Positions 9,365 to 43,180 of a stretch of DNA of 64,000 nucleotides are shown in pieces. Position numbers and translations under genes: made by a program. Numbering within the stretch: position 1 is the stretch's first letter; each line of letters opens with the position of its first letter. The notes below the pieces were generated by a model, which did no database searches, was not told the DNA's origin, and saw nothing but the letters and a program-made list of their open reading frames with translations. Location: contig JAJEKV010000023.1 in the NCBI GenBank assembly GCA_021234155.1, positions 6,285,945 through 6,349,944 on the forward strand. The letters are read 5' to 3'. Source of the stretch: Isoetes taiwanensis. Its lineage: Eukaryota; Streptophyta; Lycopodiopsida; Isoetales; Isoetaceae.

Positions 9365-10348
9365 TCACTGATTCTGTGTTGGCTTGCGACAAACTAAAAG
9401 ATGCATTGGACTGAATATTCCAGTTTCTCCGCCATGAGTAAGATACACTGCAGTCTTAAACAACATTTCATGAACTTCAACCACATCTTGATGGGCTATA
9501 CCCAAAAATGAGAGCAAAGCAATTACCACATGATTCCTATAATATGAAAGCTTTCCCATTTGCAGGCGTTTCCACCATGGCAAAGCAGGGGGGAGAGCTA
9601 AATCTCTGTCCTCCAGAACCTCAAAACCCACTTCTTTGGCAATAGCACCAACCTGACTGAAGCTCCTTAATCCAGGCAAGGCATCACCGTGCTCAATGCC
9701 ATGGATGATCTCCCTATGCTCAGCATCATCAGCATTATACTTAGGAGTGGTGACCCATTCATAAGTTACATACAGCTGCCCAGGCTTTAAAACACGATAG
9801 ATCTCAGCATAAACATCTTTTAGCTGAGGTGCATGACATGTTGCCTCTATGGAATAAGCTGCATCAAAAGAGTTATCTGGGAAAGGCATACTCAAAAAAT
9901 TGCCACAAATAACCTCACAGAGGTTATCTAACTGAGCCTTTTTATTATGACTTCTAGCTCTTGCTACCTGGTAGTCGTTGATAGTAATCCCCACCACATG
10001 TGCTCGAGAATGACTAGCAATCGCCCTCATAGGTCCACCGACGCCACAATCAGCATCCAACACCTTCATTCCAGGCTTCAGTTTTAACGGATCCGCAACC
10101 TTTTCTTCATGCAAACGTGTTTCTTCTTTATGAGACTTGCCAGATACTGCCGGAGAAAAATGAAAGCTTTGGCCCCAACCCCACTCATAAATATCTGTTA
10201 CCAGATTATAGAAGGTATCTACAAGCTTGGGCACTCGCTCTTTCATGGTGATCTGCGCTGGTTTGTCAAAGAAAGCTGCATACTCACGATAGTTATCAGC
10301 AACCAAACAGCTTCCGGTTAGCCGGTATGCACAGCAGCCGCCTGGCAA
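9365..10348 (-). pseudogene. SMT1: Sterol C-24 methyltransferase (SMT1-type), intronless 5'-truncated copy
   Basis: The enzyme family transfers a methyl group from S-adenosylmethionine to C-24 of cycloartenol, the first committed step of phytosterol synthesis at the ER. All family motifs are visible in about 320 residues: YEWGWGQSFHF (sterol-binding region I), a SAM-binding segment, IEATCHAP, YEWVTT and GGETGIFSPMH. The SAM motif reads LDADCGVGGP where the family has LDVGCGVGGP, so a glycine of the nucleotide-binding loop is an aspartate. The plant gene normally has many introns; here the whole domain is one open frame. The frame is closed upstream by a stop near 10375 with no in-frame ATG before the conserved region, so the N terminus is lost. 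These points suggest a processed retrocopy that is probably inactive as an enzyme. The reading frame itself is intact, so it is either young or retained. Confidence 0.85.
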
Positions 10349-10569: not shown

Positions 10570-11710
10570 AACAACCAGTATACCAGCTCCAGTGTACATG
10601 GAAGCCAATTTTTACTGGTGCATACTCACACAATAATGGAAGCCAATTTTTACTGGTGCATACTCACACAATTATTGTGGAGCTTATCCTGCTGCCATAT
10701 GGCAGACAAAGTGGAGGACACGTATAGACACAAGTTCTACCACGTCGGGGATCATGGCCGCAGACAAAGTGGAGGACACGTATAGACACAAGTTCTACCA
10801 CGTCGGGGATCATGGCCGTATAACCCCAGTAACCAACTCCCAAAGCTAAACATACACTGGCCAGGGTTTGAACCCCTGACCAAGTGCACATTTATTTTGG
10901 CATTACTAGGCCTATACCAACTCACCACACATCCGTTGGGCAAAACTTTAGCCATACATGCACACTTTGTAGGCAGGATAGAATCCCGCCTCAGGAAGTC
11001 AGGGAATTTTTAGGCAACAACCAGTATACCAGCTCCAGTGTACATGGAAGCCAATTTTTACTGGTGCATACTCACACAATTATTGTGGAGCTTATCCTGC
11101 TGCCATATGGCAGACAAAGTGGAGGACACGTATAGACACAAGTTCTACCACGCGGGGATCATGGTATATAACCCCAAGAACCAACTCCCAAAGCTAAACA
11201 TACAGCGGCCGGGGTTTGAACCCCCGACCAAGTGCACATTTATTTTGGCATTACTAGGCCTATACCAACTCACCACACATCCGTTGGGCAAAACTTTAGC
11301 CATACATGCACACTTTGTAGGCGGGGATAGAATCGCCTCGGGAAGTCGGGAATTTTTAGGCAACAACCAAAGATACAAAGCTCCAGTGTACATGGAAGCC
11401 AATTTTTACTGGTGCATACTCACACAATTATTGTGGAGCTTATCCTGCTGCCATATGGCAGACAAAGTGGAGGACACGTATAGACACAAGTTCTACCACG
11501 TCGGGGATCATGGCCATATAACCCCAGTAACCAACTCCCAAAGCTAAACATACACTGGCCAGGGTTTGAACCCCTGACCAAGTGCACATTTATTTTGGCA
11601 TTACTAGGCCTATACCAACTCATCAGGAAGTCCGTTGGGCAAAACTTTAGCCATACATGCACACTTTGTAGGCAGGATAGAATCCCGCCTCAGGAAGTCA
11701 GGGAAGTCAG
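10570..11710. repeat. 348-bp tandem repeat, three copies
   Basis: The landmark 'gtggagcttatcctgctgcc' starts at 10677, 11085 and 11433, giving periods of 408 and 348 bp. The 60-bp excess in copy 1 is an internal duplication (about 10701-10757 and 10758-10817). Each copy contains ggtttgaacccctgacc (or ggtttgaacccccgacc), close to a tRNA T-arm/B-box. Similarity between copies is very high, so the array is recent. The short ORFs on both strands are shadows of the repeat. Confidence 0.85.
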
Positions 11711-12945: not shown

Positions 12946-15420
12946 GGACTGCATGATTTCACTAGATTCTCAAAACTCTTGGGAAGATTCCCTTAGATTC
13001 CCAAAGATTCTCTTAAGATTCCTCTAGATTCTCTAAGATCCTATGAAGATTCCCTTAGACTTTACATGATTCCATCAAGATTCCTCTAGATTCTTAAAGA
13101 ATCTATGGAGATTCCCTTGGATTCCCTTAATTTCTCAAAGAGTCTCTCGTGATTCCTATAGATTCCCTTTGATTTTCCAAAGATTCTCTTGAGATTCCCT
13201 TTGATTCCTAAAGATTCTCTTGAGATTTCCATAGATTTTATAAAGATTCCTCTAGATTCTCCAAGATTGCATCAAGATTCCTCTAGATTCTCCACGTATT
13301 TATGAAGATTCCTTTAGATTCCCTGAGATTCCTATGGATTCCCTTTAGATTATCTAAGATCTCTGACGATTCCCCAGATTCTTATAAAATTACCATGAAT
13401 TCCGTAAAATTCTAAGATTCCAAAAAGATTCTTAGTGTTCGATCACGTTGGCTGCAACTACAACGAAATAGTGCCAAAGCACCACTCATTGGAAAGCTCT
13501 CGACGAGAGGAATCCAATGGCCTGGGTCCCACCTTCATCCGACCCCTCTACTGCAAGCTATGTGCCTTTGAAGACGGTTAAACAAAAGGAAGCTTCCTAG
13601 AAAGTCTAATCATAAATGTTTTGCCACCTCATTACCTTTTTATTAATGAGGGTGCCACCTCACCTCCTTTTAAAAAAAAATCAATTTAATATTAAAAAGT
13701 TAATGGCTAGGATTTATGCTCACCTTTTAATCTAACGGCTAAGATCTTTTACACCAAATCTACTTTAAGGGGCCTTCCTTGCACCTTCCTTACAAAAAAT
13801 CAAGGGCTAGGATTTATCCTTGATATTCGTCTAGATTCCCAAAGATTATCCCAAGACTCCTCTAGATTCCCCAAGATTTTATGTGGTTTTATTGAATTCT
13901 CCAAGATTTGATGAAGATTCTCCTAGATTCCTTTAGATTATAGGAAAATTCTCCATGATTCTCCAAGATTCTATCATGATTTCACTAGATTCTCAAAACT
14001 TTTGGGAAGATTCCCTTAGATTCCCAAAGATTCTCTTAAGATTCCTCTAGATTCTCTAAGATCCTATGAAGATTCCCTTAGACTTTACATGATTCCTAAG
14101 ATTCTCTTCCTCTAGATTCTCTAAGATCTCTGACGATTCCCCAGATTCTTATAAAATTACCATGAATTCCGTAAAATTCTAAGATTCCAAAAAGATTCTT
14201 AGTGTTCGATCACGTTGGCTGCAACTACAACGAAATAGTGCCAAAGCACCACTCATTGGAAAGCTCTCGACGAGAGGAATCCAATGGCGTGGGTCCCACC
14301 TTCATCCGACCCCTCTACTGCAAGCTACGTGCCTTTGAAGACGGTTAAACAAAAGGAAGCTTCCTAGAAAGTCTAATCATAAATGTTTTGCCACCTCATT
14401 ATCTTTTTATTAATGAGGGTGCCACCTCACCTCCTTTTAAAAAAAAATCAATTTAATATTAAAAAGTTAATGGCTAGGATTTATGCTCACCTTTTAATCT
14501 AACGGCTAAGATCTTTTACACCAAATCTACTTTAAGGGGCCTTCCTTGCACCTTCCTTACAAAAAATCAAGGGCTAGGATTTATCCTTGATATTCGTCTA
14601 GATTCCCAAAGATTATCCCAAGACTCCTCTAGATTCCCCAAGATTTTATGTGGTTTTATTGAATTCTCCAAGATTTGATGAAGATTCTCCTAGATTCCTT
14701 TAGATTATAGGAAAATTCTCCATGATTCTCCAAGATTCTATCATGATTTCACTAGATTCTCAAAACTTTTGGGAAGATTCCCTTAGATTCCCAAAGATTC
14801 TCTTAAGATTCCTCTAGATTCTCTAAGATCCTATGAAGATTCCCTTAGACTTTACATGATTCCTAAGATTCTCTTCCTCTAGATTCTCTAAGATCTCTGA
14901 CGATTCCCATGAATTCCGTAAAATTCTAAGATTCCAAAAAGATTCTTAGTGTTCGATCACGTTGGCTGCAACTACAACGAAATAGTGCCAACGCACCACT
15001 CATTGGAAAGCTCTCGACGAGAGGAATCCAATGGCGTGGGTCCCACCTTCATCCGACCCCTCTACTGCAAGCTACGTGCCTTTGAAGACGGTTAAACAAA
15101 AGGAAGCTTTCTAGAAAGTCTAATCATAAATGTTTTGCCACCTCATTACCTTTTTATTAATGAGGGTGCCACCTCAGCTCCTTTTAAAAAAAATCAATTT
15201 AATATTAAAAAGTTAATGGCTAGGATTTATGCTCACCTTTTAATCTAACGGCTAAGATCTTTTACACCAAATCTACTTTAAGGGGCCTTCCTTGCACCTT
15301 CCTTACAAAAAATCAAGGGCTAGGATTTATCCTTCCCTTTTCATCCAACGGTCCAGGGATGTGGTGCATGCCCCCATGCATGACCCATGCATGCCTCCAT
15401 GCATGCCCATAAGGAATGGA
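12946..15420 (+). repeat. GATTC-rich repeat element with ~750-bp internal tandem copies (copy A)
   Basis: The region is built from short 'AGATTC(C/T)...' units of roughly 10-25 bp, separated by a conserved ~380-bp unique part. The landmark gttcgatcacgttggctgc occurs at 13437, 14204 and 14951 (periods 767 and 747). The unique part includes tggctaggatttatgctcacc and aacggctaagatcttttaca. The last unit ends in a CATGCATG-rich block (15370-15412). There is no coding capacity. A related copy in the opposite orientation surrounds the gypsy element at 28.3-43.1 kb. Confidence 0.85.
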
Positions 15421-28261: not shown

Positions 28262-29066
28262 GGTGGCGCGACATGGGCCATTGGATTATGGATGGGTCAT
28301 GCATGGGGACATACATGGCCATGCATGGGGGCATGCAACACATCTCTAGACCATCAAATCAAAAAGGGGAGGCGAAATCATGGCCCTTGATTTTTACTAG
28401 GAAGGTGCAATGAAGCTTCTTCCAAAGTGGATTTGGTGTAACCAATCTTAACCGTTAGATCAAAAGGGGGAGGAGAAATCCTAGCCATTCATTTTTTTTA
28501 TTAAATTAGAGTTTTTTATATTAAAAGGGTGAGGTGTCACCCTTATTTAATGAAAAGGTAATGAGGCACCCCATTAATTATGAAACTTTCATGGAAGCTT
28601 CATTCTTTTGTGTTTCATTCAAACGACTTTATCTTGCGATCGAGATCTCAGATCAAAGTGGGACCCACACCGTTGGATTCCTCTCATCGAATGCTTTTCA
28701 ATGAGTAGTGGTTTGACATCATTCCGTGCAACCTTGGATAATCTAGGGGAATCTTCATAGAATCTAAGGGAATCTAAGAGAATCCATATAGAAGCTTGGG
28801 GAATCTAGAGGAATTTTGGGATAATCTTTGGGAATCAAAGGAATCTCAAGAGAATCTTAAGGAATCTATGGGAATCTCAAAAGCATCTAGGGAAATCTAG
28901 GAGAATCTTCGAAAAATGTTTAAGAATCTAGGGAAATCTTGATAGAATCTTAACGAATCTAGGGGAATATTCATAGAATTTAAGGGAATCTAGGAGAATC
29001 TACATAGAATCTTGGGGAATCTAAATGAATCGTCAAATAATCTTTGAGAATCTAGGGGAATATATA
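28262..29066 (-). repeat. GATTC-rich repeat element, copy B, left part
   Basis: This is the reverse complement of copy A: a CATGCATG-rich end (28300-28330), then sequence matching 'ggtgtaa...ccgttagatc' (28430-28460), then many 'GAATCT...' units from 28740. It is interrupted by the gypsy element, and its continuation lies at 42432-43103. Confidence 0.75.
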
Positions 29067-29071
29067 GAACC
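29067..29071. repeat. Target-site duplication of gypsy element (left)
   Basis: GAACC directly before the 5' LTR is repeated at 42427-42431 directly after the 3' LTR, the 5-bp duplication expected of an integrase-mediated insertion. Confidence 0.95.
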
Positions 29072-30736
29072 TGTGACGTTCCAGCACAGTATACGGTCCC
29101 AGGACGTATACTGTACTGCCCCGTCACGCGTACACGCCACCCCGACTGACGTGTACGCCAACGTGTAGACAGGCGGGTAGCCCCTAGGGGGCAACTTGCA
29201 AGGGAATGTGCATTTATTAATGTGCACATTTAACCATGTACACATTAATGTGGGCACACATTTCCATGTGGACACTTTATACCAAGTGGGCCATACCCAA
29301 GTGTGCAATTAATGTGCACATTTACCAATGTACACATTAATGTGGGCACACATTTCCATGTGGGCACATTTTGCCACCTAGCCATTAAAGGCAAGTGGGC
29401 CCATTCCCAATTATCCCACATGCCTAAAGGGGATAATTGGAAACCCTAGCCAACCCCATGTCTATTTAAGGAGGGAAACCCTAACTTACCCATTTTTCGT
29501 TTCTAGGGTTTTAGAGCTCTGTTTTGGCTGCCTCAAGAGCCAAAACCGCCTTCCAGACTCTGCCTGGGAGAATTGCACCATTAGTTTCCCTTGATTCGAG
29601 CGTTTCAGCAGGATGGTCGAGCTCAGGTCAGGAGGAGCCACTCAAGGATCAGGTATTTAGGCAATTTAATAGCTTAAACCATGTTTCAGTCATAGAATCA
29701 GTAGGTTTAGCCTATTAAATTGCCCATAGCAGCTCTCTAGATCTCTAGATACCAGACTCTAACTAAAGAACCTAACTCTATGAGATAGATTAGATATAGT
29801 TCTTTAGTTCTTCTGAGATGTATGTGGATGATGTATCTCTATGAACTCCTTGTATTGGGAAGGGGGGTAGAGACCTAAAGCTTGGTAGTAGATGCTCCTA
29901 GATTAGCCTCTCTAGCACACTATAGTTTCGGCCTGTGTACAAGAACCACACCTGGTTGTAGGTGAAGGGGCCAGACTGGCTAAGAAGGAGGTTCATGTCC
30001 TGACTCTTGAACGACCCCTCTGGTGTGTAAAGCCTACCAGGGATCATTGTGACTAAGTCTAATGGCTTACCACTGAGTGCGGGTAAGGCATGGACTCGAC
30101 ACCCGTGAAGTGGTGTACACTTTCCAGTGGGTTCAGTCGAATACGGGCAGTGGCCCTCTAGTCACCTTGAGTCAGCATGTAGATCTCTGGAGGGAGTGAT
30201 CCCTTCCTGCCCCATCGGAACTGGGAGGATGAGACCCAGGAATAGCCCCTTTGGCTATGCATCCGGCGGGCTACAGTCAGGTCCCGACACTTTTCAGCCT
30301 ACTCTGCAAAGTGTGCACAGGAGGGGCGGATGGAGTGGATAACCCTATGCCATGTTCATATGCCAGCCAAATCCATTGCCATGAATTCTGTCTGCAATGA
30401 ACTCTGGAGACCCAAGCCGTCAGTCATCCCCTTGAGTCTGAGCCTGGGGTAGGACTTCCCATATGTATTGTGCTCACCCTTGTCTATGCAGATGTGATGG
30501 ACCACCCTTCGAGGTGGATATGTGCTTATGCTATGTACTGACATGTATGTTTACGCTTCCGCAGCTAGGTAGACCCTGAGGGAGACGGGGTAAAATGACC
30601 CCTTCACTCTTCCCACTGGAACCCGTCACGGTTGCAGTGCCATGTGGAGGGCCCTGTATCGGCATGGAGCTGGTATGGGGGATGAACTCCTGTTTGTATA
30701 CGGTGAGTGCACCGTATACGAGTAGGGGACGTCACA
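29072..30736 (+). repeat. 5' LTR
   Basis: It starts TGTGACGT and ends ACGTCACA, an 8-bp terminal inverted repeat. It contains a TATTTAAG box at 29464-29471, likely the RNA start region, preceded by repeated ATTAATGTG(C/G)GCACA motifs at 29210-29360. The short ORFs inside are not supported as genes. Confidence 0.95.
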
Positions 30737-30737
30737 G

Positions 30738-30749
30738 TGGTATCAGAGC
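30738..30749 (+). promoter_or_regulatory. Primer binding site (tRNA-Met type)
   Basis: TGGTATCAGAGC lies one base after the 5' LTR and matches the primer site complementary to the 3' end of initiator tRNA-Met, which is common in plant gypsy elements. Confidence 0.9.
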
Positions 30750-30954: not shown

Positions 30955-31223
30955 GTCTCACACGTCGCGCCAGGACAGATAATGAGATTCTCATTTTCGG
31001 GCTGGGCGCAACGTGTGAGACATTCAGCTTGAAACACACTAAAAAGTCATAAATTACAGAAAAGTAACTTGATAATTCTAAATTTGAGTTAAGAAATAGT
31101 AGAATTAGCATGTTATATGCTTAGAAAGTAGAAAACTTAGTAGCGGGACCCACCATGTCTCACACGTCGCGCCAGGACAGAAAATGAACTTCTCATTATC
31201 GGTCTGGGCGCAACGTGTGAGAC
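30955..31223. repeat. First pair of 67-bp palindromic hairpins
   Basis: Copies lie at 30955-31021 and 31157-31223. Each begins GTCTCACACGTCGCGCC and ends with its near reverse complement GGCGCAACGTGTGAGAC. Inner pairing is through AATGAGA/TCTCATT-type sequence. The first copy is type 1 (inner ...cattttcgggctggg) and the second is type 2 (inner ...cattatcggtctggg). The pair lies 78 bases upstream of the TATA box that precedes the histone-like ORF. Confidence 0.9.
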
Positions 31224-31300: not shown

Positions 31301-31308
31301 TATAAATA
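31301..31308 (+). promoter_or_regulatory. TATA box upstream of the H3-like ORF
   Basis: TATAAATA in the context cctTATAAATAGacc lies 109 bases before the ATG at 31410. The same box and spacing precede the second accessory ORF (33251), suggesting each ORF has its own promoter. Confidence 0.6.
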
Positions 31309-31409
31309 GACCTAGACCCCCTCATTTTCGCGTACCCTGCTTAGAAAGTCTGCTATCCTTTGCCAAGGCGATCTTCTGGTGCATAGCTCGGATCGGCAAA
31401 CCATCGAAC

Positions 31410-32699
31410 ATGGCCCGGACAAAACAGACCGCTAGGAAGCCCCGCCGTCGCGGATCGTTCAGCGCCAGCGACCCTGGCCTCATTCAGACCATACTCCGAG
31501 AACGCCTTTTCCACCAAGGCGAATCCTCGTCCAGCGTGGAGGCGAGATCGGACCGGAGCGACCAAACGGAGGTCATAAGCGAGGAGCGACCGGACATCAT
31601 GCAGCAAATTCTCGAAGAGATCGCCGTGGAGGAGAGGAGGAGCAGGGAGGAACGGGAACAGATAGGGCAGCCGACCGTCGCAGAGAAACTCGAGGCTTGG
31701 GCCCGTCTGCAGGAGGAGAAAGGGAGAGAGGAGCAGCGGCAGCCGAGGCTTAGCCCTGCCGAAGAAGCAGACCTCGCGGCCTTCATCAGCAAGTATGAAG
31801 ACAAGGAGCGCCGCCGAGAGCAGAGGACGAAGAGCCGGCAAGACGACCCAATCACAGCCGGCGGGCCAAAGAAGAGGAAGGCCAAAGCCATTAAGGCGGG
31901 CAAGAGAAAAGTTGTGAAGGTTGGTAAGCGAGCGACGGGTCCCGTCATCAACGAACCAACAGGCGAGCAGACCCCGCCTTCGACCGACGACTCGGACGAG
32001 GATTACGTCTCCAACACAGAGGGGGTGAGCTCTTCAAAACCCCCGGCCGTGGAGAAGGAAGTACCTGAGCAGGTGGCACCTGAGCAGGAGCAGCCCGGGC
32101 AGGCGCCGAAGCCCCCACCTTTTCCGGCGTGGGATAGAGTTAAAGCCCCGCGACCCCAACGGGAGGCGTACGTGATAGACCCGGTCAAGGTCTATCAGAA
32201 GAAGATTAAGGAGCACAATGCCTATATGGCGAAGTGGGAGGCGTACAACGCTTACTATCAGGAGCACAGGGTGAGAACAATTGAAGGCAGACGCCCGACA
32301 AAAAGCAAGGCCCTGAAGCCACCGCCACCCAGGCCCAAGCCTCCCAGAGCACCAGGAAAGAAGCGGAGCAAGAGCAAGCAGAAGGAGCAGAGAGCCCTCA
32401 AAGAAATCCGGCACTTCCAGCGAAGTTACGGACTCTTGATTCCCCGGGCACCGTTTCAACGCTTGGTCCGTGAAGTCATCCAGGAGTACAACACGGACAT
32501 GCGCGTGACCGATGAAATGCTGCTGTGCTTACAGGAGGCAGCAGAGGCGAAAATAGTGCAGCATTTTGAGGATTCGACGGCCTGCACAGTACACGCGAAG
32601 AGGGTCACGCTCATGAGGCAGGATATGCATTTAGCTAGACACATCAAACTTTTTGTAAATAATGAAAATTTTTGTTCATATAAAAGAATTTTCGTGTAA
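31410..32699 (+). CDS. Histone H3-like protein encoded inside the retroelement
   Basis: The preferred start is the ATG at 31410 (context aacATGGcc); an upstream in-frame ATG at 31257 lies before the TATA box. The 429-residue protein begins MARTKQTARK, identical to the histone H3 tail through lysine 9, then PRRRGS replaces the usual STGGKAPR. Residues about 15-150 are rich in Glu/Arg and probably helical. Residues about 150-180 are a basic, nuclear-signal-like block (PKKRKAKAIKAGKRK). About 185-330 is acidic then proline-rich (PPPPRPKPPRAP). Residues 328-413 match the H3 histone fold: RALKEIRHFQ, PFQRLVREV, LQEAAEAKIVQHFED, HAKRVTLM and LARHI. Roughly half of the aligned residues equal canonical H3. 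Loop 1 has canonical H3 length, without the extra residues of plant CENH3, although ALKEIRHFQ and LQEAAE recall CENH3. The last 16 residues are not H3-like. GC content is well above that of the flanks. It could package element DNA or RNA-derived chromatin, mimic H3 at chromatin readers, or be a captured host gene. No frame breaks are seen. Confidence 0.9.
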   Translation: MARTKQTARKPRRRGSFSASDPGLIQTILRERLFHQGESSSSVEARSDRSDQTEVISEERPDIMQQILEEIAVEERRSREEREQIGQPTVAEKLEAWARLQEEKGREEQRQPRLSPAEEADLAAFISKYEDKERRREQRTKSRQDDPITAGGPKKRKAKAIKAGKRKVVKVGKRATGPVINEPTGEQTPPSTDDSDEDYVSNTEGVSSSKPPAVEKEVPEQVAPEQEQPGQAPKPPPFPAWDRVKAPRPQREAYVIDPVKVYQKKIKEHNAYMAKWEAYNAYYQEHRVRTIEGRRPTKSKALKPPPPRPKPPRAPGKKRSKSKQKEQRALKEIRHFQRSYGLLIPRAPFQRLVREVIQEYNTDMRVTDEMLLCLQEAAEAKIVQHFEDSTACTVHAKRVTLMRQDMHLARHIKLFVNNENFCSYKRIFV

Positions 32700-32792: not shown

Positions 32793-33059
32793 GTCTCACA
32801 CGTCGCGCCAGGACAGAAAATGAGAATCTCATTTTCGGGCTGGGCGCAACGTGTGAGACCATGCCCCAAAAATGCCCAAAACTGCTTCAAATCGACCAAA
32901 TAAGGGGTCAATTCTGCCTAACTCGACGAGTCTAGTAGAATTACACCCTTAAATCACCCAGATTGATCAAGTTTAGCCCATTTAGAGCCCATGTCTCACA
33001 TGTCGCGCCAGGGCAGAAAATGAACTTTTCATTATCGGTCTGGGCGCAACGTGTGAGAC
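32793..33059. repeat. Second pair of 67-bp palindromic hairpins
   Basis: Copies lie at 32793-32859 (type 1) and 32993-33059 (type 2), in the same order and nearly the same spacing (200 versus 202 bp) as the first pair. This shows that a whole upstream module was duplicated rather than single hairpins scattered. Confidence 0.9.
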
Positions 33060-33250: not shown

Positions 33251-33258
33251 TATAAATA
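33251..33258 (+). promoter_or_regulatory. TATA box upstream of the acidic ORF
   Basis: TATAAATA in the context ttcTATAAATAGGtcc lies 122 bases before the ATG at 33373, matching the arrangement in front of the H3-like ORF. Confidence 0.6.
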
Positions 33259-33372
33259 GGTCCTCCATTTCTCAATTAGCACCCTGCAAGTTTGCTCTCC
33301 ACTGCTTAGGTGATCTTCCAGCTCCCTGAGGCGCTTCTGCATCCGTTTGATACTCTCTTCTTCGCTAGATCA

Positions 33373-33948
33373 ATGGCCACTGCTGACTTCAGGCGATGGT
33401 ACAACGCCAGTGCCCATGCTGCTGAGGCGGATGTCAATGACATCTTCCGAGTCTTCGGGAAAGAAATAGATGTGCAAGCCACTCTGAATGCAACCCCATC
33501 GTATAGATAAGTCTTAGCAGAGTTCCAAGCTAGGGTAGGACCCTCTCTCGTCCAGCTCCCCCCTTGCATAGGCTATTTTGTTCCCCGCCCATCCCTTCAA
33601 GCAGCCTTGGGTGATGTCCCCAACATCGCCAAGTACTTAACTAACAAGGCGCAGAGGCTACCCGACTACATGGTCCTGACAGCTAACAGGACTAAGTATT
33701 TCTCCTACACCGCCGCCTTAGCTATTTTCCTATCCCACCGTGCCGAAAACCCATTGGGGGCAACCTCTATTCCTCCCATGGAGGTGGACCCCATAGCAGC
33801 CCGAGCAGAAGAGCAGATGCTTTTGCAGTACCAGCAAGAGCAAGAAGGAAGAGAGGAAGAAGAGGAGTCGGACGACGAAGAATACACCGAGCTAGACTCA
33901 GAGGAGGAATGGCGACAAGCAGAAGAGGAGCTGGTCAACTTCGAGTAG
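33373..33948 (+). pseudogene. Accessory ORF 2, acidic C terminus, one in-frame stop
   Basis: The frame from ATG 33373 to the stop at 33946-33948 is 191 codons long, broken once by TAA at 33508-33510. The N-terminal half is mixed (FRRWYNASAHAAEADVNDIF, then FGKEIDVQATLNA). The middle contains NIAKYLTNKAQRLPDYMVLT. The last 50 residues are extremely acidic (EEEEESDDEEYTELDSEEE). I do not recognise the family. Acidic tails of this kind are found in histone chaperones and other histone-binding proteins, so a partner role for the neighbouring H3-like protein is possible, but this is inference. It has its own TATA box and hairpin pair. The single stop may be decay or a read error. Confidence 0.6.
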
Positions 33949-35060
33949 AGCCGGCAGAACCTCAGAGTTGCTCCCCCACTTGGGCTAGGCATCACAAGCC
34001 TAGCCCCTATCATCATCGGCCCGAGAGGAGTATTTACTCCCTCGGTGACATCCGAAACCTACCCGAATGCGGGGAGAGGGAGCTCGGACTGATGAACTGC
34101 TCCACCAACCACGGTAGTCCCACACGGACGACTTCATCGCCCGGGGAGTCTCGCACTTTCCGCTTCAAGTCGGGAAGCCGACACCTACACGGGGAAGTGA
34201 CTTGGACATCTAGGCTACAAAGAAACATCGGGCAAATGATGGAAGAGCGGAGTCGCCAACGGAGGAGGAGTTCCTCGCCCTCCGGAAGCAGATGGAGATC
34301 GTGGAAAGACCACGAGCATCCTAATGCCGAGGCCTTCGACACCACCTCCAACAAGAGGAGCGAGGAATTGACCTCGACGAAGTCGACTCCACAATTGAAG
34401 ACTCACCGGAGCCGACCGAGATAGAGGTCAACGAATACGGGCGGGCAAGATAGATTTGGAGGCCAAACATGTTTTGAGAAGCTTCAACACGACACACAAT
34501 GACAGTCCCTCGAGGTACTACCCGCCACCGCCTGGCTGGATGGGAGAATAGCGGTAGTACAACCGCAAGTTCAGCCCCGGGGGAGAAGAAGGAGTGTTCA
34601 TGCTTATTGCACTCTCAAAGCCGCAGCATGCTCGAATAGCGGCAAATGTCGACTATGCTGTCCTAGTCAAGAGAGCAATGGCACTTGACCTCTTCGACTT
34701 CGCCATACCCCATCGACGGCAAAGTAGATCGGCGGTAACCAAGGCCCTGCATAAACCAATCGCAGGGTGGAAGAGTTGGCGAGAGCTTTGCAGGGCAGCT
34801 CGTCAGCAAACGTCCTCAGGAACTTGGGTCATTCGGTAGGAACGGCCCAAGTTAAGAAGTTCCTTGAGGACAACCCGTCTTACCGGCGATTTCAAGACTA
34901 GTTAGACTCTTGATCCCGGAGACTTTTTGTACTAAAATATTATATAATATATGAATATAATTTCTTTTGCACTTTAAATGTTGTGTTGATGTATTTTGTG
35001 TCCCCAACTATACCAACAACATAAATAAGGCAAGAGAACAAGTAAAACTAACCATATAGC
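33949..35060 (+). pseudogene. Degenerate coding-like region between accessory ORFs and gag
   Basis: Coding-like stretches shift between frames: SPTEEEFLALRKQMEIVE (about 34250-34310), then RGIDLDEVDSTIEDSPEPTE in the same frame to about 34425, and VFMLIALSKPQHARIAANVD followed by YAVLVKRAMALDLFDFAI at 34594-34720. It may be the N-terminal part of gag or a further accessory ORF. No domain is recognised with confidence. Confidence 0.4.
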
Positions 35061-35099: not shown

Positions 35100-36354
35100 G
35101 GGGAACGACAATGCCGAGACCATATGGAAGAACAGGGTCCACCCAGACCACACCCGGCAAGGAACCTGTTCGAGGAATTTTGACCCATAACCCCAGAAGA
35201 GGAAATATCACAGATGAGGACGGACCTGGAGCAGATAAAGGTTTTACTGGCAGCGCAAGCAGGAGCGGGTTCGGTGGGCAACGCTCAGTTGCCGCAAGCA
35301 TCAGCTCGGAAAACAGGAAGAGACAAGAAGAGAAGCAAGAGAAGGAGGTCCTCCAGCTCGGAATCCTCCGACTCAAGCTCGGACTCGACCGACCAAGAAG
35401 ACGAAGAGCGTAACCGTGGACCTAACGAGATGGAAGGAAAGAGGAACACTGCAGATGGAAGGCAGAGGGATACCATAGAGGGACGACAAAGGGACACAAG
35501 AACCTCCTCGACACGGTAAGAAAGTAGACTCGTGATTGGGGAATGTTTGGAAGGCCGTAAAGCTCGAAAGCAATTCTCAAAGCGAGAACAGTCGCATGGA
35601 AGCAGAGGCTTATTCGATGAGATGAGTGAATATGGCAATGCTTATGGTATGAAGGACAAGGATAAAGGTAGGGTGGCAACAGCCAACCTGAAAGGAGCAA
35701 AGACGATATGGTGGAAGGGGTATGCAAAGGCCCATGGCTTGAGCAGGATGCTTGCGGTGTTCAAGAAGTTTGCTAAAGCCTTCAAGCGCCATTACGTCCC
35801 AAGAGAGCACAAGTCCAAAGATGATGCAAAGTAGTTCTATAGGCTCCAAACAGTGGAAACAAATCAGTCCAGTAAATATACAGAGGAATTCATGAGGCTG
35901 AGGTCAGACAAAGCCAAAGTTGGGTGAGAAGCATGCAAAAGAGAAAGCTACATTGAGGGCCTGAATGAGGAGATCCGCAAGCTTGTAAGGGCAATAAATC
36001 CTAAGACAGTATCAGAAGCAGAGTCCAAGGCAATAAGCTTGCAAGGAAACGGGACCTCAGAATAGCGGGCGAGGCGAAAGATTACCGGGATAAAGGCAAG
36101 GCAAATGGGGAGTTATAGTCCTAGGGCAGCCACCTGTGTCCAGCCTAGAGCCCCATATGGTGGCAATCGGGGAAGCAAATAGGAGAAAAAGGTGTGTCCT
36201 TCAAGGACAAACAGAGGGGTCAAACTACTCCAAAGCAAAGGCGATCCTTTTGCAGTGCATGCCCAAGGAAAAGAGACAGAGTGCATAGAAAAGCAGCTTT
36301 TGTTTTCAGTGCTTCAAAGCCAAAAGCCATAGGACAGCGAACTGTCCCTACGTC
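35100..36354 (+). pseudogene. gag: Broken gag with nucleic-acid-binding zinc knuckle
   Basis: A basic Ser/Arg-rich part (RDKKRSKRRRSSSS, 35300-35370) is followed by capsid-like sequence in which TIWWKGYAKAHG, FAKAFKRHYVPREHKSKDDA and YRLQTVETNQSSKYTEEFMRL fit the retrotransposon gag pattern (35700-35905). Stops and frame changes interrupt it at about 35520, 35832 and 35926. A zinc knuckle [16 protein letters not shown] begins at 36301. It has C-X2-C-X5-H-X4-C spacing, one residue longer than the usual X4. It is in frame with the pol ORF that follows, so gag and pol were probably one polyprotein. Confidence 0.75.
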
Positions 36355-37614
36355 ATGAGTGCAGCACTAGCGGAGTTGGGAGATTGGGACATCCTGTCTG
36401 ACGACGACGGCGAGGAAGCCCGCGACTACATTCAGGGTGAGTGTCATATCTTTGCCGCAATAGATACAGAGCAAGCAGAGAACCAGTATAAAGTAATTTC
36501 CACAGTAGGGAAGGCCAAGGCCAAGTCCTTCATAGTCCTGATAGACTCAGGAAGTAGCCATAACTTTGCATCCCCCAGAATGGTTCAAATGTTGAAGTTG
36601 AAACCGCTAAAATCAAAGCCAAGGCCCGTTGTCTTAGCAAGTGGAGCAGTAAGGCAGACGGCAGGCAAGAGAATTAACTTCAACATCGATTTGCCAGGGA
36701 TTAATATCCAGATGGGGGCAGAAGTAATGGGCATTGGCAAGTATGACCTGATCATAGGAATGGAATATCTTGGGCCAGCAGGAGCCATTATTGATTGTGG
36801 AAAGCGGAAGGTGACCTTCCCAACAACCGACGGCAAGATCATTGAGATCACAGGTAAAGAAGTTGTTCCCATCATGCAGTGTATGTCTTCTAAACGGCTG
36901 TTCAAGTGCATCAAGAGCAAGCAGGTGGCATACATCTTCAAGCTTGAGATTGATGAGCCAGAGTCAGAAGGAAGCAAAGAAGACAAGGCGCTCAGCAAGT
37001 TGCCGAAGCAAATAGCTAAGCTGATCACGGAGTTCCATGATCTCTTTCCAGACGAGATCAAGCAACTTCCTCCTTACAGGGGAGTCGAGTGTGAGATAGC
37101 ACTCGAACCAGGAACAAAGCCGACAAGTAAGGCCCCATACAGAATGACGACGCAAGAGTTGACGGAGCTAAAGAAGCAATTACAGGAGTTGTTCGACCTA
37201 GGCTTCATTAGACCTAGTGTCTCGCCATTTGGAGCGCCCATTCTCTTTGTAAAGAAGAAGGATGGCAGTTTAAGGATGTGCATAGACTATAGGCAGTTGA
37301 ACAAGCACACCATTAAGAACAAGTATGCGCTCCCCAGATCAGATGACTTGATGGATCAACTCCAAGGTGCAAAGGTCTTCTCCAAAATCGACCTAAAGTC
37401 AGGTTATCATCAGATCAGGATAAAGGAAGAAGATATCCATAAGACCGCCTTCAGAACGCGGTATGGGCATTATGAGTTCACGGTAATGCCTTTCGGATTA
37501 TCGAATGCCCCCGCGACGTTCATGAGGCTCATGAACGACATCTTCGTGGGAGTTTTAGACACCTTTGTGATTGTATTCTTTGATGACATTTTGGTGTATA
37601 GCAGATCCCTTTGA
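36355..37614 (+). pseudogene. pol: pol part 1: aspartic protease and reverse transcriptase
   Basis: The 419-residue stretch holds the protease motif [11 protein letters not shown] (residues about 61-71). It then has RT motifs: [59 protein letters not shown] and the active-site segment FFDDILVYS. The catalytic pair of aspartates is present; the residue before them is Phe. The frame ends at TGA 37612-37614 within the RT, where the family continues, so a frameshift truncates it. The next 340 bases carry RT sequence with further breaks. Confidence 0.9.
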
Positions 37615-38849
37615 AGAGCACGTGCACAACACTTAAGGAGAGTGCTAGAGAAGTTGAAGAGGCACCGGTTATGCGTCAAGTTGTCGAAGTGTCACCGCAA
37701 TGAGAGAAGGTGGAATACCGGGTCATGTGATCTCAAAGAAGGAATCTCGACGGATCCCCGCCAAGATTGAAGCCGTCATTCGTGGGCGGCGGCCAAGAAT
37801 GTGCATGAAGTCGGTTTTTTTCTCGGCCTAGCGGTACTACTGAGGAAGTTCGTGAAGAACTTTGCTAAGATAGCGGCCCCGTTAACGGACTTGACGAGGG
37901 CGGAGAAGGTGAAAGATTGGGCAGAGCATTGACATAAGAAAGCCCAAGCAGGGTTTGAATTGTTGAAGGAAGCTTTAACAACCGCCCCAGTCTTAACCCT
38001 GCCGGACCCGGAGAAAGATAAGCTTGTAGCAACAGATGCGAGTAAGATAGCTACAAAAGGCAAAGGTTTCATGCAAGAAGAGCGTGTGGTAGCGTATGAT
38101 TCCAGGAAGATGAACGACGCCGAAACGCGCTACCCCACCCACAATCAGGAATTGCTTGCGGTTGTCAGGACATTAAGAATTTGGAGGCACTATCTTTTGG
38201 GAAGGAAGTTCCAATTGGATACAGACCATCAGAGCCTCCACTATGTATTCACGCAACCACACCTCAACCTGAGGCAGAGAAGGTGGATGGAATTCCTTGA
38301 GGAATATGACTTTGATATAGTCTATAAGTCAGGGAAGCTCAATGTGGTAGCGGATGCGCTTTCAAGGCATCCCCTGGCAACTAGAGTGCATTGCAATGCA
38401 ATTTCGACGCTCTCCAGCGACTTTGGTAAGAAGATTGAAGAGTCCTTGCCAACAGATGTGGAATTCAAGGAAGTATGGGCAAGCCTCTCTAGGGAGGCTA
38501 GAACAGATAAGGAGCGGGAAGCCTTCAAACATTATAAAAAGGAAGAAAACCTGCTATACCATAAGAACAAGTTGTGCGTACCCGAATCATCAGGTGTAAG
38601 GAAATTGATCCTCCATGACACGCACAACAGCCCAATAGCTGGCCATGCGGGATTCATGAAAACATATTTCAAAGTGCGCAGCAGCTATTATTGGCCAGGA
38701 ATGAAGAAGCAAGTAGCTCGCTACATCAGGGAATGTCAGCTATGTCAGCAGACGAAGGCAGAGCAGCTTCGAATTCCAGGGGCATTAGAGCCATTGGCGG
38801 TGCCAAACGCTAAGTGGGAGGTGATCAGCATGGATTTCATCACAGGGCA
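37615..38849 (+). pseudogene. pol: pol part 2: RT end, RNase H and integrase N terminus
   Basis: From 37615 to 37935 RT-like pieces appear in several frames. From about 37936 one frame runs through RNase H (QAGFELLKEALTTAPVLTLP, VAYDSRKMNDAETRYPTHNQ, TDHQSLHYVF, VADALSRHP). It then enters the integrase zinc-binding domain with H-X3-H and C-X2-C ligands (HDTHNSPIAGHAGFM, CQLCQQTK) and SMDFITG, the first catalytic Asp. A one-base loss near 38850 moves the rest of integrase to another frame. Confidence 0.85.
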
Positions 38850-39911
38850 GGAAAGGACGCCTTGATGGTAGTGGTCGACAAGTTGTCGAAGATGGCACAT
38901 TTTGTGCCTTGCAGGACCACAGATACGGCTATGGATACAGCAAAGCTCTTCACCAAAGAGATCTTCAGGCCTCATGGCATGCCAAGGGAGATTATCTCCG
39001 ACAGGGATCCGAAGTTTATGAGTGCCTTTTGGCAAGACCTCTTCGCGACAATTCAGACGAAGCTATCCATGAGCACGGCGTATCATCCTCAGACGGATGG
39101 CCAAACGGAGCGGACCAACAGGATTTTAGAGGACATGCTACGGAACTACGTCTGGAATAAGCAAGGTATGTGGAAAGAATTTATTCACTTGGTGGAATTT
39201 GCCTACAACAGCACCAAGCAAGAATCATCCCAAATGTCGCCGTTTATGATTAATTACGGCTATCAGTGCCTAACTCCAGGCACTTGGCACAACCCCGTGT
39301 CAAAAATGGAAGTTTCGCAGCAGATGTTGGCCGATATGCAGCAGCTCGTGGAAGAAGTTCGAGGGTATCTGCTAGCAGCAAGAAGTCGACAAAAGAGCAT
39401 CGCCGACAAGCATCGAACAGTCAGAGAGTTCAAAGTTGGAGATGATGTATGGCTCAAGATCAAGGTGAAGCAGGCGAAGCTCAGGATCGGGAATTGCAAG
39501 AAGCTTGCTCCAAGGTGGGCTGGACCTTTCAGAATAGTCAAGAGAGTAGGCAATCAATCCTACAAGCTAGACTTGCCAGCACACCTAAAGATTCATAAGG
39601 TCTTCCACGTGAGTTTGTTGAAGAAGCACACTCCAAATCCAGACGAAGTCTTGGACACTCCAACGTTGTTGGAAATGACGGAGGAGCAGCTGGAAATAGT
39701 TCCAGAATTGATTCTTGATAAAGCTTTCAAGAAAACAAGGAGGTCGGAGTTCCTCCAATACTTGGTCAAGTGGAAACACTTGCCAGTGGAAGACGCGACA
39801 TGGGTACTTAAGAAAGATCTAGTAAAGCAGTACCCACAGTTTATGGAGCAATGGGACGGAAAAGTCATCTCCGAAGAAATCGGCTCAGGCATGTCGATTT
39901 GTGTAGATTAA
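38850..39911 (+). pseudogene. pol: pol part 3: integrase core and chromodomain
   Basis: The frame starts at the break with GKDALMVVVDKLSKMAHFVP and contains ISDRDPKFMSAFWQ (second Asp) and YHPQTDGQTERTNRILEDML (catalytic Glu), completing the DDE set. A GPF-type region (APRWAGPFRIVKRVGNQSYK) and HKVFHVSLLK follow. The C terminus is a chromodomain: PELILDKAFKKTRRSEFLQY, LVKWKHLPVEDATWV and DLVKQYPQFMEQW. Aromatic positions of the methyl-lysine cage are only partly kept. Chromodomains of this group are known to guide integration to particular chromatin. Ends at TAG 39909-39911. Confidence 0.9.
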
Positions 39912-40754: not shown

Positions 40755-40767
40755 AAGGTGGGGAGGA
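40755..40767 (+). promoter_or_regulatory. Polypurine tract
   Basis: AAGGTGGGGAGGA ends directly at the TGTGACGT start of the 3' LTR, the position of the plus-strand primer. Confidence 0.9.
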
Positions 40768-42426
40768 TGTGACGTTCCAGCACAGTATACGGTCCCAGGA
40801 CGTATACTGTACTGCCCCGTCACGCGTACACGCCACCTCGACTGACGTGTACGCCAATGTGTAGACAGGCGGGTAGCCCCTAGGGGGCAACTTGCAAGGG
40901 AATGTGCATTTATTAATGTGCACATTTAACCATGTACACATTAATGTGGGCACACATTTCCATGTGGACACTTTATACCAAGTGGGCCATACCCAAGTGT
41001 GCAATTAATGTGCACATTTACCAATGTACACATTAATGTGGGCACACATTTCCATGTGGGCACATTTTGCCACCTAGCCATTAAAGGCAAGTGGGCCCAT
41101 TCCCAATTATCCCACATGCCTAAAGGGGATAATAGGAAACCCTAGCCAACCCCATGTCTATTTAAGGAGGGAAACCCTAACTTACCCATTTTTCGTTTCT
41201 AGGGTTTTAGAGCTCTGTTTTGGCTGCCTCAAGAGCCAAAACCGCCTCCCAGACTCTGCCTGGGAGAATTGCACCATTAGTTTCCCTTGATTCGAGCGTT
41301 TCAGCAGGATGGTCGAGCTCAGGTCAGGAGGAGCCACTCAAGGATCAGGTATTTAGGCAATTTAATAGCTTAAACCATGTTTCAGTCATAGAATCAATAG
41401 GTTTAGCCTATTAAATTGCCCATAGCAGCTCTCTAGATCTCTAGATACCAGACTCTAACTAAAGAACCTAACTCTATGAGATAGATTAGATATAGTTCTT
41501 TAGTTCTTCTGAGATGTATGTGGATGATGTATCTCTATGAACTCCTTGTATTGGGAAGGGGGTAGAGACCTAAAGCTTGGTAGTAGATGCTCCTAGATTA
41601 GCCTCTAGCACACTATAGTTTACTTTGTGTACAAGAACCACACACAGGTTGTAGGTGAAGGGGCGGGCCGGGCTAAGAAGGAGGTTCATGTCCTGACTCT
41701 TGAACGACCCCTCTGGTGTGTAATGCCTACCAGGGATCATTGTGACTAGGTCTTGGCTTACCATTGAGTGCGGGTAAGGCATGGACTCGACACCGTGAAG
41801 TGGTGTACACTTTCCAAGTGGGTTGGTCCGAATCACGGGCGGTGGCCCTCTAGTCACCTTTGAGTCGGCATGTAGATCTCGGAGGGAGTGATCCCTTCCC
41901 GCCCCATCGAGGCGGGAGGATGAGACCCGTGAATAGCCCCTTTGGCTATGCATCCGGGCTGGCTTCTGATCAGTCCCGACACTTTTCAGCCTACTCGCAA
42001 AGTGTGCACAGAAGGGCGGATGGAGTGGACAACCCTATGCCATGTTCATATGCCACCAAATCCATTGCCATGAATTACATGCAGAATGAACTCTGGAGAC
42101 CCAAGCCGCCGGGCCATCCCCCTTGAGTCCGAGCCGGGGTAGGACTTCCCATATGTATTGTGCTCACCCTTGTCTATGCAGATGTGATGGACTACCCTTC
42201 GAGGTGGATATGTGCTTATGCTATGTACTGACATGTATGTTTACGCTTCCGCAGCTAGGTAGACCCTGAGGGAGACGGGGTAAAATGACCCCTTCACTCT
42301 TCCCACTGGAACCCGTCACGGTTGCAGTGCCATGTGGAGGGCCCTGTATCGGCATGGAGCTGGTATGGGGGATGAACTCCTGTTTGTATACGGTGAGTGC
42401 ACCGTATACGAGTAGGGGACGTCACA
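40768..42426 (+). repeat. 3' LTR
   Basis: It is near-identical to the 5' LTR in its first ~810 and last ~300 bases (a handful of differences), but the middle (about 41590-42125) carries dozens of substitutions and small indels. Many of these are CAG/CTG in the 5' LTR versus CGG/CCG here. Confidence 0.95.
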
Positions 42427-42431
42427 GAACC
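42427..42431. repeat. Target-site duplication of gypsy element (right)
   Basis: GAACC, matching 29067-29071. Confidence 0.95.
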
Positions 42432-43103
42432 TTAAGTATCCAGGGGGATCTTATAGGGAATCGAGGGAGAATCCAAGGGGACCTATGGAAATCTTTCACA
42501 CTAGGTGTGTTCTACGGGGAAATCTTCATAGAATACAAGAGAATCTAGAAGAATCTACATGGAATCTTAGGCAATCTAGAGGAATCTTAGGATAATATTT
42601 GAGTATCTAGGGGAATCTCAAGAGAATCTAAAGGAATCTAAAGGAATCTTGGGATAACCTTTGGAAATCAAGGAAATATCAAAAGAATCTTAAGGAATCT
42701 ATAGGAGCATCAAAAGAATATAGAGGAATCTAAGAGAATCTTCAAAAAATATTTAGAATCTAGGGGAATCTTGATGGAATCTTAGAGAATCTAGTGGAAT
42801 CTTTATAGAATCTAAGGGAATCTACGAGAATCTACATAGAATCTTGTGTAATCTAAAAGAATCTTTAGATGATCTTTGAAAATCTAGGGGAATTGTGGAA
42901 CCTTAGGGAATGTAGGAGGAATCCAAGGGGATCTATGGAAATCTTTGACACTGGGTGTGTTCTACAAGGGAATCTTCGTAGAATCTAAGGGAATCTTGAA
43001 GAATCTACATGGAATCTACATAGAATCTTGGGTAATCTAAAGGAATCTTTAGATGATCTTTGAAAATCTAGGGGAATTGTGGAACCTTAGGGAATGTAGC
43101 GGA
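42432..43103 (-). repeat. GATTC-rich repeat element, copy B, right part
   Basis: Continues the GAATCT-type units interrupted at 29066. Two subcopies containing 'ggaatcttagg...', 'ctaggggaattgtggaacc' and 'gacactgggtgtgttctac' lie about 450 bp apart (42470-42520 and 42930-42980). Confidence 0.75.
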
Positions 43104-43180
43104 AGGCCATGGTTTCTTAGTGCCTTGGAAGAAAAAGATAGAACTGATTAAACCTATAAAATTAGAAGTAAGGTTTCAAG

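Follow-up and report, generated by a model that had tools for sequence, protein, structure and literature searches.

A Ty3/gypsy chromovirus family of Isoetes taiwanensis carrying a histone H3-fusion gene between its 5' LTR and gag

We analysed a window of 64,000 nucleotides (64 kb) from the genome of Isoetes taiwanensis, which contains an LTR retrotransposon with the marks of a Ty3/gypsy chromovirus. Its 5' LTR (29072..30736; plus strand, like all features below unless stated otherwise) has the form TG...CA and is paired with a 3' LTR at 40768..42426. The pair is flanked by the target-site duplication GAACC, on the left at 29067..29071 and on the right at 42427..42431 (neither assigned a strand). 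The PBS, TGGTATCAGAGC (30738..30749), is presumably of the initiator methionine tRNA type, and a polypurine tract, AAGGTGGGGAGGA, lies at 40755..40767. Pfam matches give the pol domain order protease-reverse transcriptase-RNase H-integrase: an open stretch encoding the aspartic protease and reverse transcriptase (36289..37611), a region with RNase H and the integrase zinc-binding domain (37933..38862), and a region with the integrase core, an SH3-like domain and, after the integrase, a chromodomain (38814..39908; PF00385, 2.4e-10). The gag region (35184..35831) is broken, and its Retrotrans_gag match (E 0.0088) is below the cut-off. Together the LTRs, target duplication, PBS, polypurine tract and ordered pol place the gene of interest, ORF1 (31410..32699), which starts 672 nt past the PBS start, within one transposed unit.

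The two LTRs differ by 34 mismatches, of which 28, along with all 34 gap columns, fall within the block 29862-30445. Many of the gaps there are 1-nt indels, and the block looks like assembly noise or a local assembly error; we therefore dropped LTR divergence as a clock for this part. The remainder of the LTR (approximately 1081 bp) has 6 mismatches, and by this sequence comparison the insertion reads as young. Minisatellite-like arrays with a 31-bp unit of the GAATCTAGGGGAATCTT type flank the insertion on both sides and also occur elsewhere in the window (12955-14871, 28740-29061, 42467-43112), and the element seems to have inserted within one of them. Elsewhere the window holds an open, intron-less ORF of 327 amino acids on the minus strand (9365-10348), sterol methyltransferase-like by eye and possibly a retrocopy, and a tandem repeat (10760-11705) with 2.7 copies of a 348-bp unit (93% matches).

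ORF1 is an open frame of 429 codons, and its product has three parts: the start of the H3 tail through K9 (MARTKQTARK, 31410..31439), a linker of 317 amino acids (31440..32390) and an H3 histone-fold core (residues 328-413; 32391..32648). A sequence-only reading of this DNA had described the same layout, with an H3 tail start, a charged, proline-rich middle of about 310 residues and an H3 fold at residues 328-413, and this layout is confirmed. Residues 298-413 match the Pfam family Histone (PF00125; 1.8e-27, 96.4 bits), and H3 chains in the PDB are matched at 1.1e-25. Aligned without gaps to a plant H3, the 86-residue core is identical at 47 and similar at 63 positions. Two marks of CENH3 are an extended loop 1 and an N tail that has diverged. 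ORF1 has neither, since its core alignment contains no insertion and its N terminus is H3-like.

The protein departs from H3 in several respects. An intact tail, in which residues 1-44 lead straight into the fold, is absent: residues 1-9 are kept and the linker follows. The C-terminal end of the linker is no more H3-tail-like than shuffles (396/1000), and H3 residues 40-45 are unrecognisable in the PDB H3 alignment of family A, as we call the ORF1 type of the window element. Family A is also changed at several DNA-contact or core residues (R63P, K64R, K79N, F84V, K122Q, R129H), which counts against entry into nucleosomes. In the window copy the last 16 or so residues are read-through. The linker has acidic and proline-rich stretches, a basic NLS-like motif seen by eye (PKKRKAK) and a helical part at about residues 61-144. 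The octamer CGCGGATC, which we take to be that of plant histone promoters, occurs at 31449 within the coding sequence; it is one of two in the window and may be there by chance.

The AlphaFold model of full-length ORF1 is poor (mean pLDDT 49.8), with its confident part helical at approximately residues 61-144 (block pLDDT 71-90 over residues 61-140). The model of the core is weak too (mean pLDDT 60.7), with Foldseek TM-scores of about 0.4 and a best E of 2.0e-3. Nucleosome or H3 entries, 45-55% identical, fill its 32 best PDB rows, none of them at E <= 0.001. Given such models, the claim of an H3 fold rests on sequence. A protein-database search with the linker gave zero relatives at E <= 10. 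This null is uninformative for the family, since the reverse transcriptase matches that span 85% or more of the query were themselves just 44-50% identical among the best 120 listed. The top protein-database matches to ORF1 (P0002, P0003) were rejected as relatives, being repeated canonical H3s with summed scores; a relative sharing the H3 core alone could be hidden, as the best 120 of 1195 matches all carry more than one H3. Scans of phages and viral contigs found no relative of ORF1.

ORF1 is followed by a second gene, ORF2 (33373..34898), which encodes an acidic protein. It is broken in the window and open at 508-511 amino acids in four fetched copies (L032, L035, L040, L042), with an acidic stretch. 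The sequence-only reading had put ORF1 between the 5' LTR and gag of a gypsy element; the LTRs, PBS and GAACC bear out the element, and the placement needs the amendment that ORF2 separates ORF1 from gag. It had also set the uninterrupted ORF1 against broken gag and pol genes. ORF1 is indeed open, but the argument is weak by itself, as pol keeps an open stretch of 441 codons and the LTR differences resemble assembly error. ORF2 has no Pfam match (three open copies searched) and no PDB match at E <= 1.

The two genes form twin modules, each preceded by two 67-nt palindromes and a TATA-box-like TATAAATAG. Before ORF1 these are palindromes A1 (30955..31021) and B1 (31157..31223) and the box at 31301..31309, 109 nt ahead of the gene; before ORF2 they are A2 (32793..32859; 97% identical to A1), B2 (32993..33059; 95.5% identical to B1) and the box at 33251..33259, 122 nt ahead. 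The 9-mer TATAAATAG has just two occurrences in the window, and two or more are seen in 23/100 shuffles. The spacers of the two modules are 53% identical, against a shuffle mean of 46% (4/300 shuffles reach 53%). The palindromes are conserved far better than these spacers and may serve as common control sites or form RNA hairpins. A palindrome match in a bacterial genome (L001) was discounted, being at about chance expectation by our own estimate. The 5' UTRs of ORF1 and ORF2 are related (0/1000 shuffles as alike), and ACTTTTTGTA occurs twice in the window, once at the end of each gene (two or more in 4/100 shuffles). The 3' ends around it are not significantly alike (175/1000 shuffles), and the two proteins have no convincing similarity.

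We searched the whole genome (1,658,258,908 bases in 1,110 contigs) with ORF1. At least 98 long matches were found, counting the window copy, and every one spans 325 or more of the 429 residues; the other matches, at least 97, are 70-91% identical to the window ORF1. These counts are lower bounds, since 98 of 13,659 first-look candidates were scored. The set of 30 loci used below consists of the best protein matches, again including the window. In 23 of them ORF1 stays open for 400 codons or more, and the remaining 7 have an early stop. MARTKQTARK is exact in 26/30, and in 25/30 the core is followed by LARHIKGERP and a stop, an end that is close to the H3 ending LARRIRGERA and that the window copy lacks. 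Around the gene, TATAAATA is found near the position of the box before ORF1 in 29/30 loci and before ORF2 in 27/30, the start of ORF2 is present in 27/30, and a palindrome arm is present in all 30. Twelve loci, all picked among those with an open ORF1, were fetched with wider flanks. The arrangement of 5' LTR and ORF1 recurs in all 12 (some of the LTR sequences are partial), with ORF2 in 11/12 and pieces of gag and pol in 10/12. The copies thus show a Ty3/gypsy chromovirus family that has, between 5' LTR and gag, a gene for a predicted H3-fusion protein with its own conserved TATA-like box ahead of it.

Is the gene under selection? Measured across copies, as the sequence-only reading had proposed, pairwise dN/dS (the ratio of mean dN to mean dS in the 23 copies selected for open frames) is 0.153 for the whole ORF, 0.018 for the tail and 0.051 for the core, at a mean dS of 0.56. 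Within the linker it is 0.27 for residues 11-60, 0.142 for 61-144 and 0.174 for 145-327. The uncorrected pooled pN/pS of the same copies follows the same order (tail 0.029, core 0.072, whole ORF1 0.208). The 30 loci being the best protein matches, dN is understated, but this bias does not account for the contrast between domains. The four open ORF2s give 0.129, and ORF1 in the same four copies 0.157. In a like-for-like comparison of the window with L037, dN/dS is 0.116 for protease-reverse transcriptase and 0.225 for ORF1, so that the whole of ORF1 is less constrained than the reverse transcriptase in this pair, which counts against our main explanation. A neutral simulation carried to an equal divergence of the core produced a mean of 1.9 stops; 6/2000 runs reached the BLOSUM score of the real core and 53/2000 its count of conservative changes. 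The changes in the ORF1 core are more conservative than in the neutral simulation.

A second population of H3 fusions appeared when the genome was searched with the histone family. Among the 150 of 8,705 candidates that were scored, 15 lie at 164-165 bits and at least 135 at 144-155 bits, on many contigs. Of the 15, the 12 that were fetched encode canonical H3. We examined three members of the 144-155-bit group (L056, L057, L058). L056 and L058 form family B, with an N-terminal region of approximately 330 amino acids and a core identical to host H3 at 74/86 positions; L057 represents family C, with an N-terminal region related to that of family B and a core identical at 76/86. None of the three has an H3 tail start at its N terminus. 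The N-terminal domain of B and C and the linker of family A are no more similar than shuffles, and the best PDB match of the B/C domain has an E-value of 0.098. The element context is visible in one of the three members, L056, in which the 12-mer TGGTATCAGAGC of the PBS lies 721 nt before the ORF and the downstream gag is 57% identical to that of the window over 60 aligned residues; the flanks of L057 and L058 are too short. The start of the ORF downstream of L058 has weak similarity to ORF2 (12/300 shuffles), and the ORF downstream of L057 has none (160/300 shuffles). Searched against the genome, the L058 protein gave at least 95 scored matches among 12,627 candidates, itself included; in about half of them the matched part contains no stop. 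The cores of L056 and L058 are identical at 84/86 positions, at a pS of 0.60 and a dN/dS of 0.017. Elsewhere in the core comparisons, dN/dS values of 0.000 reflect saturated synonymous sites and not zero.

The many copies of ORF1, the low dN/dS and the second fusion family argue that the elements captured H3 and have retained it as an accessory gene, and on these sequence comparisons we regard this capture and selected retention as almost certain. The capture itself had been proposed by the sequence-only reading, and it is upheld by the strong C-terminal H3 match and by the same ORF standing at the same place in many copies. That selection has kept the fusion gene working suggests that the element uses a histone of its own. 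What might this histone do? The sequence-only reading had suggested that it may form chromatin on the element's DNA or occupy H3 readers and writers. The H3 core is what the fusion designs have in common, and R69, R72, R83, D106, C110, H113, K115, R116, T118, D123 and L126 are kept in A, B and C (one sequence each); we take these residues to serve in contacts with DNA, in pairing with H4 or at the H3-H3' interface. Both points favour incorporation with H4. The ORF1 core would then pair with host H4 and enter nucleosomes, which the retained residues make probable. The N-terminal parts differ among the designs and so probably carry an element-specific job. In the mechanism we propose, the fused region would act on chromatin that holds element DNA or target sites, either by tethering element proteins or cDNA or by making fusion nucleosomes that host H3-based silencing handles abnormally. 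The explanation as a whole, with the core in nucleosomes and the N-terminal region acting on chromatin, is in our judgment the likelier account. Residues 86-90 of H3 are treated as a chaperone recognition site in the available text of a review of viral histones (PMC9145170). Host H3 reads SSAVL at this site, and A, B and C read DEMLL, AFAIL or TFAIL, a difference that suggests altered deposition and counts against the explanation.

Some of the same observations could be read otherwise. Residues 1-9 of the tail might act as a decoy that occupies host H3K4/K9 readers or writers, or the chromodomain of the element, with the fold a mere carrier; the tail is after all the most constrained part of ORF1 and is exact in most loci. 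The strong constraint on the core speaks against it, as do the P found in place of S after K9 in 30/30 loci and the element chromodomain, in which, by eye, two of the three cage residues seem to be missing. Moreover, the three members of the second population have a nearly canonical core and no tail start, which weakens the decoy as a general function. We consider it unlikely on the whole; in family A the tail may by itself serve as a decoy. An H3 core might also package element cDNA or RNA in virus-like particles instead of entering host nucleosomes. Such a particle protein would suit the position of ORF1 close to gag, the many K and R residues of the linker (66 of 317) and a dN/dS in the range of ORF2. 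Simple nucleic-acid binding would, by contrast, require neither the H3 tail of family A nor the kept H113, D123 and L126, to which we ascribe roles at the H3-H3' interface, and the NLS-like motif in the linker is likewise at odds with it. This use of the core seems to us improbable.

The gene could also be a host H3 variant that was recently picked up, with selection acting in the host and not in the element. However, element LTR, palindromes and ORF2 surround ORF1 in the copies, the window copy compared with host H3 has saturated synonymous sites (pS 0.967), and the 12 top host H3 loci that were fetched encode ordinary, canonical H3 of 136 amino acids; we give this origin very little credence. 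Least credible of all is a passenger without a role, whether a piece of host H3 picked up by chance or a join made in assembly. Plant LTR elements are well documented to capture genes (PMC7264820, in the text available), and the early stops in 7/30 loci would fit a passenger. It is already contradicted by the copy number, the shared place in 12/12 fetched copies, the dN/dS, the neutral simulation and the second fusion design, and the first two of these equally dispose of the one-off chimera or assembly join that the sequence-only reading had named as its own undoing.

The family would add retroelements to the carriers of histones known so far, which are DNA viruses and fungal hAT transposons. 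Hosts silence retrotransposons largely by way of histone H3 marks. With a conserved, element-encoded H3 fusion present in many copies, one can test whether a retroelement is able to alter the nucleosome itself and not the enzymes that set the marks. The cores, which have identities of 56% and 86% to host H3 and are naturally fused at their N termini, are also material on which to ask which H3 residues matter. It is tempting to go further and propose that at least two such designs, arising by separate captures or by deep divergence, have been selected to mark, tether or de-silence chromatin, and that a group of LTR retrotransposons in this lycophyte thereby supplies its own nucleosome subunits; for this broader proposal we would put the chances at even.

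The sequence-only reading knew of no plant LTR retrotransposon with an H3 gene, and among the results of full-text searches of open-licence literature (subscription papers lying outside it) we likewise saw no LTR retrotransposon with a histone gene. In the texts available to us, the paper on plant chromoviruses with a group II chromodomain, which share gag-pol and an integrase chromodomain with the window element, does not mention an H3 gene (PMC3350952). The main text of a 2026 review of plant gene capture has no word starting with "histone" (PMC13317346), that of the viral-histone review none starting with "retro" (PMC9145170), and "histone" is absent from the available text of the Isoetes taiwanensis genome paper (PMC8566536). 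A screen for extra domains in LTR elements of 121 angiosperm genomes, lycophytes being outside its scope, names no histone domain in the text available; the AlkB-type 2-ODD of Phalaenopsis Ty3/gypsy elements that it describes is, like ORF1, a captured host domain retained as an extra ORF (PMC9289625).

As far as the accessible parts of these sources go, the nearest precedents are H3-carrying fungal hAT DNA transposons, followed by the histones of DNA viruses. Single viral H3s and the bracovirus H4 are, like ORF1, lone core histones borne by a parasite, and they are thought to enter host nucleosomes; some viral histones bear N-terminal additions of 53 or 68 residues (PMC9145170). They reside in DNA viruses, whereas ORF1 resides in an LTR retrotransposon. 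In Pseudocercospora and its relatives, a hAT element captured and amplified an H3 transcript or retrocopy, and all of its hundreds of copies but the original are described as inactivated by RIP (PMC6710886); this too is a DNA transposon, unlike the element with ORF1. The hAT transposon of Pyrenophora tritici-repentis carries an H3-like gene, H3L, together with an ORF of unknown function (PMC3538342). H3L has insertions in its N tail, is neither H3 nor CENH3, and is present in 26 nearly identical copies with ESTs; its authors allow that the genes may have undergone drift (PMC3538342). The window element resembles it in being a mobile element with an H3-like gene, an extra ORF and an insertion in the N tail. 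It does not match the hAT-borne H3L class, for its ends are LTRs and its pol is of the gypsy type. Unlike the young copies of that fungal DNA transposon, ORF1 belongs to a plant LTR retrotransposon, has an insertion of 317 amino acids, combines a dN/dS of 0.15 with a mean dS of 0.56, and is accompanied in the same genome by a second fusion design.
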